Source of the DNA: Acidovorax sp. A1169
GTDB taxonomy: Bacteria; Pseudomonadota; Gammaproteobacteria; Burkholderiales; Burkholderiaceae_C
Direction of reading: 5' to 3'
NCBI RefSeq assembly: GCF_030704685.1
Contig: NZ_JAUZDX010000011.1
Span: 1 to 64,000 of the forward strand
DNA length: 64,000 nucleotides
Shown here piece after piece: positions 1 through 64,000 of this stretch. The notes under the pieces are model-generated. The model was not told the origin of the DNA. It ran no database searches and was given only the letters and a program-made list of their open reading frames with translations. Position numbers and translations under genes: made by a program. Numbering within the stretch: the first letter of the stretch is position 1; each line of letters opens with the position of its first letter.

Positions 1-677
1 TACCGAATAGCGTTGGTTAGCAGATTGCCGAGCACCTGCTCCAAGCGAAATTCGTCCCAAATTCCTGCAACGGTGTCAGGCGTTGCATAGGATAGTTCGC
101 AGCCTGCAGCTGCGGCTTGGGCCTCGAATCCCACCGCCACGCGGCTGACCAAGTGAGCCAAGTCCATCGGTCGGGTCAAAATGGACATCGCGCCATGTTC
201 CATGCGTGCGGCGTCTCTTATGTCATCAATCAGGCGCACCATGTTCTTGATCATCCTCTCGTCACGCTGCATCATGGCTGCGTTGCGATCCACGCTGAGA
301 ATGTCACTTCGCGGCACACGAAGCCTCATCTGAGTTTGGAGATAAAGGGTCTGTAGAGGCGTCCGGAGTTCGTGCACGGCTACGGAGGTGAACTCCTCGC
401 GCAGATCGTTTTGGCGCTGCAGCATCACCTGGGCAGCTTGCAACTCCGCGAGTTGCCTGCGCAAGAGCATGTTGCTGAGCACAGCCTCCTCGAGAAGGTC
501 AATGGTGCGTTGATGGTCAAACGCGCCCAGTGTCGCGCCAGATGCGCAGACGATGGTGCTAATCAATACACCATCGCAGCCCACTACCGACCGCAATCGC
601 GGCTCACACCTTTCTTGCAAAAGTGCATTCCTCCGATCGAGAATCTGGTCTGAGATAGTCAAGTCTGTTGTTGTCAT
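1..677 (-). CDS. Sensor histidine kinase, C-terminus off the window
   Basis: This is the first 225 residues of a two-component sensor kinase whose 3' end lies beyond base 1. The reverse strand starts at ATG 677-675 (MTTTDLTISDQILD) and reads through without a stop. An H-box with HELRTPLQ, the phospho-accepting histidine, lies at about residue 103, preceded by a coiled stretch (RRQLAELQAAQ). The start of the ATP-binding domain is seen as an N-box-like NLLTNAIRY at the window edge. There is no membrane segment or recognisable PAS/GAF domain in the roughly 90 residues before the H-box, so it is probably cytoplasmic. A GTCYGTKCG-type element lies 54 bp upstream at 731, which puts this kinase in the shared regulon. 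Its response regulator is not in the window. Confidence 0.85.
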   Translation of the reverse strand, partial: MTTTDLTISDQILDRRNALLQERCEPRLRSVVGCDGVLISTIVCASGATLGAFDHQRTIDLLEEAVLSNMLLRRQLAELQAAQVMLQRQNDLREEFTSVAVHELRTPLQTLYLQTQMRLRVPRSDILSVDRNAAMMQRDERMIKNMVRLIDDIRDAARMEHGAMSILTRPMDLAHLVSRVAVGFEAQAAAAGCELSYATPDTVAGIWDEFRLEQVLGNLLTNAIR

Positions 678-730
678 GGAGAGATCCTGTGGCGAACGCC
701 TCCATGAGCTTGCTATCACCGGCTACCGAT

Positions 731-752
731 GTCCGTGCGGTGACGCACTGAC
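731..752 (-). promoter_or_regulatory. Regulon element for the histidine kinase
   Basis: The proximal half is GTCCGTGCG and the distal half CGCACTGAC, a nearly perfect dyad. The -10-like hexamer CAAGCT is at 712-707, 18 bp from the proximal edge. The gene start is 54 bp away. Confidence 0.7.
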
Positions 753-848
753 ATGGGTGTTACGTAGCAACACATTTGCCACCCTTGTCCCTAGAGCAGA
801 CTACGTTTCTCGACAGCGCGGCCGTGTGGTGGCAGGACAGGGACGTAG

Positions 849-1640
849 CTAGCTCGCGATCTGTGCCGGCAGCAGCCGGTCATATTCCCTCTTTACAACC
901 TCGTAGCACTCGCAAGAGCGCTCCTCCAAGCCCAAACGGTCAAGCACGGTGATGCGGCCACGAGCGTACTTGATCAAACCCGCCGTTTGTAGTTTGAGTG
1001 CACTTTCCGTGACGCCCTCGCGGCGCACGCCCAGCATGTTGGCGATCAGCTCCTGGGTCATCACAAGTTCGTTGCCGGGCAGGCGATCTAGACTGAGCAG
1101 CAACCAGCGGCACAACTGCTCGCCCAGTGAGTGATGCCGGTTGCACACTGCAGTCTGTGCCATCTGCGAGATCAGCGCTTGCGTGTAGCGAAGCAGCAGA
1201 TGCATCACGGGCAAGGACTTGTCGAACTCGTCTTTGATCAATTGCGCAGTCATCCGGAACCCTTTGCCGGCGCTTTGCACCACTGCGCGGCTGGGTGTGG
1301 AATTCCCGCCCATGAAGAGCGAAAAGCCTACGATGCCCTCGTTGCCCACAACAGCAATCTCCGCCGAGTCTCCGTTCTTCATCACATAGAGCAATGACAC
1401 AATGGCTGAGGTCGGGAAGTAAACATGGCTCTCGGACTTTCCCGCCTCGTAGAGAACCAAACCAAGCGGTAGGTCGACGAGCTCAAGCACCGGCAGCCAG
1501 CGCTTCATTTCGGCGTCAGGCAACGCTGCGAGCAAGCGATTGAGTTTGGCTTCGGCGGAACTGGGTACAACCGGCTTGTGGTGGCGTGTTGGTAAGGTCT
1601 TGACAGTGTGGCGCTTACTGTCTGGGGGAGAGATAGGCAT
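849..1640 (-). CDS. Crp/Fnr-family transcription regulator (copy 1)
   Basis: This encodes a 263-residue regulator with an N-terminal cyclic-nucleotide-binding-like beta-barrel (about residues 35-160) and a C-terminal winged helix (about 190-240; QELIANMLGVRREGVTE is the helix-turn-helix). It lacks the N-terminal cysteine cluster of oxygen-sensing FNR, so the signal is unknown. The start at 1640 is preferred because AAGGGA lies 7 bases upstream; an in-frame ATG at 1733 would add 31 unconserved residues. It is closely similar along its length to the protein at 24835-25593, including the recognition helix, so both probably bind the same DNA. Unlike copy 2 it has no obvious regulon element upstream. 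It is a candidate controller of the repeated 22-bp element. Confidence 0.9.
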   Translation of the reverse strand: MPISPPDSKRHTVKTLPTRHHKPVVPSSAEAKLNRLLAALPDAEMKRWLPVLELVDLPLGLVLYEAGKSESHVYFPTSAIVSLLYVMKNGDSAEIAVVGNEGIVGFSLFMGGNSTPSRAVVQSAGKGFRMTAQLIKDEFDKSLPVMHLLLRYTQALISQMAQTAVCNRHHSLGEQLCRWLLLSLDRLPGNELVMTQELIANMLGVRREGVTESALKLQTAGLIKYARGRITVLDRLGLEERSCECYEVVKREYDRLLPAQIAS

Positions 1641-62078: not shown

Positions 62079-62603
62079 GTGACTCAACCTACGGAAATGA
62101 TCAGTGGCGTTTTCCGACAGTTTCTATTTGGTCCCAAAGGGGGGGTTGAAGGCGTACTACTGAGCGTGAAGCGAAAGATCGTCCAGGTGTCGATGTCTCC
62201 CAAAGAGGGAGTAGCTGTGTCGCACAGTTGCAAGGCTGGAAAGACCTTGCGAATGCTCGGGGCGCGCGACAACTCTCGCAGGACGGCAGCAGTAAGCACA
62301 CATCCAGTTTATGAATTTGAATCATTGGCTGATGCTTCGGGCGAGCGCATTGAATCGAGGGACGCCGACGCGAATCAGGAAACTATCGTCGGTTCAGTCG
62401 CAGCGCTGCATTATGCGAAGCATGGGCAGCCGAATGGAGTTGTGCTTGACACTGGCGAGTTCATTCATATGGGACCTGAGGGAATGGCTCTGGCCGGACT
62501 GTGCATTGGCTCGGCGGTAAAAGCGACCGGCCGCCTGGGGCTAACGGTCATAAACACACGCTGGCTAGATGCAGTTCAGATTAACGGCATCGAACTTCGC
62601 TGA
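62079..62603 (+). CDS. Unknown tandem-domain protein
   Basis: This 174-residue protein is not recognised. It has two comparable halves: VEGVLLSVKRKIVQVSMSPK with GKTLRMLG, and PNGVVLDTGEFIHMGPEG with VKATGRLGL. Each looks like a small beta-barrel (OB-like), suggesting internal duplication. The start at GTG 62079 has AAAGGA upstream. It is a regulon member by promoter. It stands before dnaK, 163 bp away. Confidence 0.65.
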   Translation: MTQPTEMISGVFRQFLFGPKGGVEGVLLSVKRKIVQVSMSPKEGVAVSHSCKAGKTLRMLGARDNSRRTAAVSTHPVYEFESLADASGERIESRDADANQETIVGSVAALHYAKHGQPNGVVLDTGEFIHMGPEGMALAGLCIGSAVKATGRLGLTVINTRWLDAVQINGIELR

Positions 62604-62699
62604 ACACCTGCTGTAGTCAGCGCAGCTCCACGTCGGCGTATCCAAGGTATCGACTACATCTACGCGTTGGGGAGTCAGCTTCACGCCATCTGAAATGCA

Positions 62700-62722
62700 G
62701 TGGACCTGCTCGCATGGTCCAC
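62700..62722. promoter_or_regulatory. Inverted repeat with CIRCE-like spacing before dnaK
   Basis: GTGGACC, nine bases, GGTCCAC. The 9-base spacing equals that of the HrcA operator CIRCE, but the arms differ. It ends 44 bp before the dnaK ATG, where an operator or leader hairpin would act. Confidence 0.4.
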
Positions 62723-62766
62723 CTGTTCACTGTTACTCAATCATTTATCTTCAGGAGCGATCACTC

Positions 62767-64000
62767 ATGTCCAAAATAATCGGCATCGACCTCGGCACCA
62801 CCAACTCGTGTGTTTCGGTCATGGAAGGGAACACCACGCGCGTGATCGAGAATTCCGAAGGTGCGCGTACCACACCTTCGATCGTCGCTTATCTCGAAGG
62901 TGGCGAAGTCTTGGTGGGCGCTTCTGCTAAGCGGCAAGCTGTCACCAACCCCAAGAACACGATTTACGCCGTGAAGCGCCTGATCGGGCGCAAGTACGAC
63001 GAGAAGGAAGTGCAGAAGGACATCGCCCTGATGCCTTACAGCATCTGCAAGGCGGACAACGGCGACGCCTGGGTGGATGTGCGTGGCCAGAAGATGGCGC
63101 CCCAGCAAGTCAGCGCAGAAATCCTGCGCAAGATGAAGAAGACTGCCGAAGACTACTTGGGCGAGCCCGTGACCGAAGCCGTTATTACGGTACCAGCCTA
63201 CTTCAATGACAGCCAGCGCCAGGCGACCAAGGACGCTGGCCGGATTGCTGGGTTGGACGTCAAGCGCATCATCAACGAGCCCACCGCCGCGGCACTGGCC
63301 TTCGGCCTCGACAAGCAAGACAAGACCGATCGTAAGATCGCCGTGTACGACTTGGGCGGCGGCACTTTCGATGTGTCCATCATCGAAATATCGAATGTTG
63401 ATAGTGAAAAGCAGTTTGAGGTATTGTCGACCAACGGAGATACCTTCTTGGGAGGCGAAGATTTCGATCAACGCATCATCGACTACATCATTGCCGAGTT
63501 CAAGAAAGAGCAAGCCGTCGATCTCGGCAAGGATGCGCTGGCGCTGCAGCGGCTCAAGGATGCTGCGGAAAAGGCCAAGATCGAATTGTCGAGCGCTGCT
63601 GCAACCGACATCAACCTTCCGTACGTGACAGCCGACGCGTCGGGCCCCAAGCACCTGAACATCAAGCTCACCCGTGCCAAGCTGGAAAGCCTAGTCGACG
63701 AGCTGATCGAACGCACCATTGCTCCGTGCCGTCTGGCCATCACGGATGCTGGCATCAACGTGAGTGACATCAGTGACGTGATTCTCGTCGGCGGCATGAC
63801 ACGCATGCCCAAGGTGCAAGACAAAGTTAAGGAATTTTTCGGCAAGGAGCCGCGCAAGGACGTGAACCCCGATGAGGCAGTTGCCGCTGGTGCCGCTATT
63901 CAGGGGCAGGTGCTTTCGGGCGATCGCAAAGACGTGCTGCTGCTCGATGTCACCCCGCTGTCGCTTGGTATCGAGACTATGGGCGGCGTGATGAACAAGA
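62767..64000 (+). CDS. dnaK: Chaperone DnaK, 3' end beyond the window
   Basis: This is the first 411 residues of the Hsp70 ATPase and part of the substrate domain. IGIDLGTTNSCVSVMEG, VYDLGGGTFDVSIIEIS and ILVGGMTRMPKVQ are the three phosphate/adenosine signatures; PLSLGIETMGGV begins the substrate domain. It partners CbpA, encoded twice in the window. Its place among stress genes rather than in a grpE-dnaK-dnaJ cluster suggests a second, island-specific copy. Confidence 0.95.
   Translation, partial: MSKIIGIDLGTTNSCVSVMEGNTTRVIENSEGARTTPSIVAYLEGGEVLVGASAKRQAVTNPKNTIYAVKRLIGRKYDEKEVQKDIALMPYSICKADNGDAWVDVRGQKMAPQQVSAEILRKMKKTAEDYLGEPVTEAVITVPAYFNDSQRQATKDAGRIAGLDVKRIINEPTAAALAFGLDKQDKTDRKIAVYDLGGGTFDVSIIEISNVDSEKQFEVLSTNGDTFLGGEDFDQRIIDYIIAEFKKEQAVDLGKDALALQRLKDAAEKAKIELSSAAATDINLPYVTADASGPKHLNIKLTRAKLESLVDELIERTIAPCRLAITDAGINVSDISDVILVGGMTRMPKVQDKVKEFFGKEPRKDVNPDEAVAAGAAIQGQVLSGDRKDVLLLDVTPLSLGIETMGGVMNK

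Follow-up and report, generated by a model that had tools for sequence, protein, structure and literature searches.

A candidate CRP/FNR-type regulon with a directional 22-bp element in Acidovorax sp. A1169 and related bacteria

This analysis concerns a 64-kb stretch of the Acidovorax sp. A1169 genome (contig NZ_JAUZDX010000011.1, positions 1 to 64,000; the whole of it is called the window), for which a preliminary description had proposed a Crp/Fnr regulon based on 20 copies of one directional 22-bp element and on two encoded Crp/Fnr proteins. We consider it probable (about 0.88) that this element, which consists of a dyad followed by a -10-like hexamer, is bound by the CRP/FNR-like proteins of the same gene islands and that these proteins act on it as class II activators of transcription. 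The candidate regulon gained support from the autoregulatory dyads of orthologous regulators, from the co-occurrence of regulator and element across genomes and from the covariation of recognition helix and operator.

The element and its predicted promoter layout

The element was found at each of the 20 places at which it had been described; 16 of these contain an exact copy of the 9-mer GTCYGTKCG, and the site at 2181 contains two. There are 19 exact matches to the 9-mer in the window compared with a mean of 3.14 (standard deviation 1.64, largest 7) in 100 shuffles of the window, which means that the earlier chance estimate of about two was slightly low. The exact 9-mers at 48359 and 60680, which were outside the earlier list, are coding and lack a second half. 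Genome-wide (6.80 Mb) there are 191 matches, and their density of 297 per Mb in the window is approximately 12 times that of the rest of the genome (about 26 per Mb). Moreover, depending on how strictly small open reading frames (ORFs) are treated, 15 or 16 of the 19 matches are non-coding in a window of which 17-20% is non-coding (p ~5e-9). The statement that all of the copies are intergenic has to be corrected for the element at 55054, which lies a short way into the called ORF 55035-56630; the real start of this ORF is probably downstream of the called one. The strong half faces a gene as was described, with 24716 as the weak case because its gene is approximately 390 bp away.

The core TGTKC-N6-GMACA does not serve as a common consensus. 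In its strict form it matches only once (at 24760, with 0.5 expected) because the gene-distal half is degenerate, and the two-half consensus was therefore re-derived from an alignment in which the strong half was placed toward the gene and 2181 was entered both ways, giving 21 orientations. The result is an oriented 22-bp dyad, GTKCG-N4-CGMAC, in which a G at position 5 (21/21) and a T at position 6 (20/21) are followed by the conserved columns CGMACRGAC. The density of the element is not the same in coding regions or elsewhere in the genome: a weight matrix that was trained on the sites of other genomes alone gave, at a threshold of at least 12 bits, 23 matches in the window (the 20 sites and three of these on the opposite strand), of which 22 were non-coding, and a single match in control sequence of the Acidovorax sp. 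A1169 genome totalling 240 kb. Another 21 matches were located in stretches of C5 (20-40 kb), C26 and C18 that lie beside other regulator paralogues. Many copies in one region would also be expected of a dispersed repeat, mobile or of the repetitive extragenic palindromic type, that is not a set of selected operators, but no column outside the site and the hexamer exceeds 0.36 bits and the sites of other genomes have the same columns, which leaves this origin extremely improbable.

Outside the dyad, two alignment columns stand out, an A at position 42 (17/21) and a T at position 46 (16/21), and together they form a -10-like hexamer, nANNNT, 18 bp past the strong half. The hexamer occurs exactly at this offset in 15 of the 21 window orientations against a base rate of 4.6% (p=4e-16). 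The offset was picked post hoc after inspection of the window sites, and the relatives' sites, 101 of them in the loci of 80 named relatives, form an independent set; there, the hexamer is found at offset 18 in 51 of the 101 sites, with offset 19 being next best with 15 and the mean being 4.0. The reversed motif yielded four sites in the same loci compared with 101 for the motif itself. The frequency of the hexamer varied with the ending of the strong half: 48/93 for GAC, 4/10 for GAT, 16/51 for TA and 18/148 for the others. Given a 17-bp spacer, the GAC of the strong half overlies the GAC of the -35 sequence TTGACA, and three or four bases of this sequence are matched in 19 of the 21 orientations, mostly through the GAC.

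With the hexamer at -12 to -7, the dyad is therefore centred at -41.5, the class II position of CRP/FNR activators and that of the class II FNR promoter FF-41.5 (PMC4505428). The element thus has, as a prediction from sequence, the class II layout of a centre at -41.5 together with a -10 hexamer. Its directionality is explained by the overlap of the strong half with the -35 region and by the fixed spacing of the hexamer; both the hexamer and this match between directionality and -35 overlap had been missed in the earlier reading.

A directional strong half with a -10-like hexamer at constant spacing could also be part of a promoter of an alternative sigma factor, in which CGMACAGAC would be the -35 box and no activator would be involved. 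However, the distal half is conserved too (the position 5 G in 21/21 and the position 6 T in 20/21), symmetric dyads that lack the GAC ending are found before regulator genes, and the hexamer has the form of an ordinary YANNNT. Moreover, at loci with a different Crp-type recognition helix (S-type, see below), this difference is accompanied by a base change in each of the two half-sites. This explanation is accordingly regarded as very unlikely. It is also conceivable that the regulators bind the element and act mainly as repressors, since 24716 and 32064 lack a hexamer at the class II place and a dual activator and repressor function is common in the CRP/FNR family. A centre at -41.5 with a partial -35 sequence is, however, an activator arrangement into which most of the sites fit, and a mainly repressing role seems unlikely.

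The elements, with strand, -10-like hexamer (at offset 18 unless given otherwise) and the genes that they face, are as follows.

731..752, minus strand: CAAGCT at 707-712; faces the HisKA ORF 3-584; a second hexamer, CACATT, on the plus side
2181..2202, both strands: fully symmetric GTCCGTTCGGTACCGAACGGAC; between regulator 1 and a divergent plus-strand gene; plus side GATATT at 2221-2226 at offset 18, minus side at offset 17 only
6745..6766, minus strand: TACCCT; DnaJ-type gene 5673-6602 and MerR_2 gene 5309-5644
13286..13307, minus strand: TATCTT; amino-acid permease, arginine deiminase, ornithine carbamoyltransferase and carbamate kinase (13012-8294)
20569..20590, minus strand: AACCCT; Ysc84 gene 19890-20474
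20619..20640, plus strand: CAGGCT; BON gene with called start 20696 and end 21349 (a longer ORF of this gene from 20513 would take in the element)
24716..24737, minus strand: no hexamer at offset 18, the nearest at 16; DnaJ_C gene 23650-24291, about 390 bp off (weak)
24757..24778, plus strand: CTATGTTCGCCAGCGAACAGAT; TAAGTT at 24797-24802; regulator 2 and alcohol dehydrogenase 25684-26784; autoregulation type
28732..28753, minus strand: hexamer at offset 19; BON gene 28023-28676 and SDR gene 27227-27988
29897..29918, minus strand: hexamer at offset 19; gene 29290-29808 (weak Xre/MbcA/ParS C-terminal match)
30156..30177, plus strand: hexamer at offset 19; EptA/EptB-type gene 30276-31967
32064..32085, plus strand: no nANNNT at offsets 16-20; PRC-barrel gene 32172-32858 and following genes
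45811..45832, minus strand: CAACCT; phosphoketolase 43108-45408 and class I aldolase 41784-42893
45903..45924, plus strand: GACATT; PRC-barrel gene 46060-46881
48651..48672, minus strand: CAAAAT; BON gene 47942-48595
54751..54772, minus strand: TATCGT; MCRA-family gene 53022-54593
55054..55075, plus strand: CACACT; aldehyde dehydrogenase 55035-56630 and SDR gene 56645-57541
60536..60557, minus strand: CACACT; BON gene 59829-60482
61874..61895, minus strand: CACTCT; BON gene 61159-61815 and YflT-domain gene 60643-61146
62002..62023, plus strand: CAGACT; ORF 62097-62603, then the DnaK gene from 62767

The encoded regulators and their probable link to the element

The window encodes two regulators.

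849..1733, minus strand: regulator 1, Crp/Fnr family, recognition helix MTQELIANMLGVRREGVTE; the true start is probably downstream of the listed ATG
24835..25593, plus strand: regulator 2, Crp/Fnr family, with the same recognition helix as regulator 1

Their recognition helices are indeed identical, as was described, but the proteins are not near-identical overall, with an identity of 69%. In the genome there are five regulators with this helix, two of them in the window, and one divergent copy. A cNMP-binding-like domain and a Crp-type helix-turn-helix were found in the regulators, the structure model of regulator 2 (predicted local distance difference test score, pLDDT, 93) had FNR, MtbCRP and GlxR as its closest folds, and a structure search with this model returned the CRP/FNR fold and no close functional relative. 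By fold, helix-turn-helix and a predicted 22-bp dyad with TGT half-sites, the regulators are assigned to the CRP/FNR superfamily. In an alignment to CRP that was made by eye, R196 and E197 fit R180 and E181 of CRP, and the place of Arg185 is taken by Glu201 in 30 of 38 sequences. All of the cysteines are at positions 155, 166, 232 and 234 in regulator 2 and at 197, 208, 274 and 276 in regulator 1, and no N-terminal cysteine cluster of the FNR/ANR type was found in either. Conserved residues, CNRHH and CECY, may form a metal or redox site. A tandem of an E-type regulator, i.e., one with Glu in the helix, and a divergent GVRRVGVTV copy is located at G000:C5:30155-31689 (L011, L014); the matched stretch of the copy was reported with one TAG, yet L014 gives an open frame of 239 amino acids. 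A similar regulator tandem is found in L174.

The regulators are linked to the element by the sequences before their own genes. Among inverted repeats of any word in 83 regions upstream of regulator genes, five of which are from Acidovorax sp. A1169, GTGCG-N4-CGCAC was found in 21 regions, TATGT-N10-ACATA in 10 and GTTCG-N4-CGAAC in eight, whereas the top 5-mer dyad of each of ten random control sets reached 4-6. In Acidovorax sp. A1169, 18 of the 21 exact long-pattern matches and all 12 promoter-pattern matches are on C3, C5 and C26, which carry five of the six regulator copies. Co-occurrence was counted in 150 genomes of the family, 61 with the regulator and 89 without it: 51 had the regulator and the pattern, 10 the regulator only, 12 the pattern only and 77 neither (Fisher 1.6e-18). 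The 61 regulator genomes contained 163 promoter-pattern matches and the 89 others contained 15, with two and eight, respectively, for the reversed control. In 271 genomes from other families of the same class, the corresponding numbers were 10 with both, 16 with the regulator only, 13 with the pattern only and 232 with neither (p=6e-6). Several sites lie within approximately 60 kb of the regulator in three of these genomes (G231, G389 and G396). The sole sampled genome of the same genus (G085) has neither the regulator nor the promoter pattern, and the islands therefore look accessory.

The element could instead belong to another transcription factor, for example an oxygen sensor of the FNR/ANR type as is suspected for the lxa locus, with the encoded regulators being bystanders. 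The gene content of the window resembles that of low-oxygen islands, and the work on lxa points to the FNR-type BCAM0049 and BCAM0287 (PMC6127331 and PMC4505428). However, the FNR box TTGAYN4RTCAA has no exact match in the window; with one mismatch there were nine matches compared with 4.6 expected, and nine were reached in 9 of 100 shuffles. The encoded regulators lack N-terminal cysteines, and the element is connected with them through co-occurrence and through covariation with the helix. A foreign regulator of this kind is very improbable.

In the reading that we prefer, the regulators encoded in the islands would bind the 22-bp dyad GTKCG-N4-CGMAC upstream of their targets, and the island genes, i.e., those for stress proteins and for fermentative and low-oxygen enzymes, would be switched on together. 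Activator and sigma70 would both recognize the gene-proximal half, and this double use would account for its strength relative to the weak distal half. Because sites precede the regulators' own genes, autoregulation is predicted, and a signal may act via the conserved CNRHH and CECY residues. For a CRP/FNR family that is present in 61 of 150 genomes of this bacterial family, the operator, the promoter class and the targets could thereby be predicted.

Recognition helix and operator variation

Regulators with a different helix, GVRRSGVTE (S-type), were found on replicons of Burkholderia, Paraburkholderia and Cupriavidus pauculus. In the by-eye alignment, their Ser is at the place of CRP Glu181 and FNR Glu209, the roles of which are treated in PMC4505428 and PMC1274295. 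The operator in the S-type regions is GTACG-N4-CGTAC. S loci had A in both half-sites in 21 dyads and K in both in 11, whereas the E loci (the 80 relatives and eight others, with helices tallied and not checked individually) had 11 and 161, respectively (p=4e-13). Of the S-type CGTACNGAC sites, 10 of 11 had the hexamer at offset 18. Eight whole S-type records contained 22 GTACG promoter patterns (in 7/8 records) and no GTKCG pattern, and these 22 comprise 19 different sequences, which fall into 11 groups at 80% identity. In four E-type records there were four GTKCG patterns in all (in 3/4), and the GTACG pattern was absent from the two E-type records that were scanned for it. The two record scans covered 11 and 13 of 15 records: W12 (Halomonas) and W14 (Eleftheria) fell outside both, W13 and W15 were included only in the scan of 13, and W07 (helix GVRRAGVTE; A-type 0, K-type 1) was assigned to neither the S nor the E group. 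S-type loci without GTKCG promoters had been considered as a counterexample and were resolved by the helix difference and the GTACG pattern. A single-base difference in the predicted operator thus accompanies a single-residue difference in the recognition helix, Ser for Glu, in related bacteria, and the E/S pair would represent a natural specificity switch. A precedent is the co-evolution of operators with residues 180/181 (PMC1274295).

Several observations weigh against the proposed regulon or its operator code. The hexamer is missing from offset 18 in 6 of the 21 window orientations; in three of these it is at offset 19, in single cases it is at 17 and at 16, and the remaining one has none in 16-20. 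In the relatives, the raw 9-mer count (161; permuted 9-mers had a median of 77) is below that of the top permuted 9-mers (up to 327), and since raw density is therefore indecisive there, dyads and hexamer were used. The pattern is missing from 10 of the 61 regulator genomes in the family and from 16 of the 26 outside it, where the reversed control gave 23 matches, counted over all 274 genomes, one of them in a regulator genome; the pattern is thus noisier there, and single matches outside the family mean little. A-type sites occur in 4 of the 150 family genomes, two of them beside E-type regulators, and 77 of the 276 core dyads in the E loci pair A with G or T. The S-type locus L216 has one GTNNGN4CGMACRGAC site, without the full pattern, and Cupriavidus pauculus has neither pattern. 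All of the S-type records are Burkholderiaceae with common orthologous sites, and the switch may therefore have been a single event. The targets in the relatives are mixed: 126 of the 199 downstream genes were covered by a Pfam scan (the scan did not take in three very long proteins or the remaining genes, which scored lower), and 27 of them are regulators of the same kind. Additionally, PMC1274295 ties residue 181 to base I number 8, while the present change is at base 7.

A second strong palindrome, GTTGAT-N4-ATCAAC, was observed in Burkholderia regions (L179, L180, L211, L212, L215 and L216) in seven distinct copies, with ACGT in the middle of most of those shown.

Targets and likeness to known systems

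The stress and low-energy theme that had been ascribed to the targets is clear in the window, by annotation only, and is looser in the relatives. The window genes behind the elements encode DnaJ-type proteins, the arginine deiminase pathway, several BON and PRC-barrel proteins, phosphoketolase and aldolase, alcohol and aldehyde dehydrogenases, an EptA-like protein and an MCRA-family protein; no element is directly upstream of a cytochrome bd or universal stress protein (Usp) gene in the window. In the relatives, ten of the downstream genes encode histidine-kinase-type ATPase domains and few encode Usp, BON or DnaJ proteins. An Acg (Rv3131)-family flavin mononucleotide oxidoreductase (NF047509) is encoded at 4100-5203 on the minus strand, and such proteins are typical of the mycobacterial dormancy regulon. 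A Usp together with an Acg-type nitroreductase, as in the mycobacterial DosR regulon, is a likeness in gene content only, DosR being a response regulator of another family.

E. coli CRP and FNR, as class II activators, have in common with the present system the fold, the 22-bp dyad, the centre at -41.5 and a downstream half that lies over the -35 region. The CRP site TGTGA-N6-TCACA has TGT at the same places as the present element. However, the present half-site is TGTKCG with N4 and not TGTGA-N6 or TTGAT-N4. The present helix is R-E-G-V-T-E; in an alignment made by eye, a Glu takes the place of Arg213 of FNR, and, in contrast to CRP and FNR, the present regulators have a C-terminal helix after CECY. 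In HcpR, HcpR2 and DNR, operator bases also co-evolve with residues 180/181 and the FNR cysteine motif is likewise lacking, but their motifs differ (GTAACN4GTTAC, TTGACN4GTCAA and TGTGAN6TCACA), their targets are hcp and denitrification genes, and the correlated base differs from the one that varies in the present operator (PMC1274295). The lxa locus of Burkholderia cenocepacia is likewise a large cluster with several universal stress proteins and a link to low oxygen (PMC6127331, PMC9104464 and PMC4505428); its suspected regulators are, however, of the FNR type, and the likeness to the window is one of gene content only. A description of the operator was not found in the literature that was searched by motif, locus, gene set, family and residues, a search that could partly miss the slash spelling CRP/FNR. 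The passages that were consulted in PMC8510549 and PMC6446978 name the FNR, DNR, NnrR, CRP and MalR motifs and not the present one.

Regulators of the present family are encoded on both plasmids and chromosomes, with 51 plasmid records (e.g., Variovorax, Acidovorax, Paraburkholderia and pKLC102), and regulator, operators and stress-type genes therefore seem to travel together. It is possible, although rather doubtful, that an undescribed CRP/FNR branch, in which a metal or redox switch made of the invariant CNRHH and CECY residues operates between the dimer and C-terminal helices, runs mobile stress-survival islands across the Gammaproteobacteria (in the GTDB sense) with an operator that doubles as the -35 element, and that in Burkholderiaceae a single Glu-to-Ser change converted all of its operators from GTKCG to GTACG, so that two regulon codes without overlap exist in nature.

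On pKLC102 of P. aeruginosa (L218), which was typed as conjugative, there are an E-type regulator and two K-type promoter patterns. No tRNA at an island border was found in the window. The start of the DnaK gene is contained in 62767-63999 on the plus strand; the antisense ORF 62761-63654 matches Pfam NAD-GH, which looks like a spurious family antisense to dnaK. A remnant at 3767-4039 on the plus strand has a match to a sodium:sulfate symporter that is confined to the final 85 residues of the latter. A glucoamylase-family or glycoside hydrolase 94 gene of approximately 8.5 kb was observed near the regulator on different plasmids (L180, L182, L210, L216 and L218).

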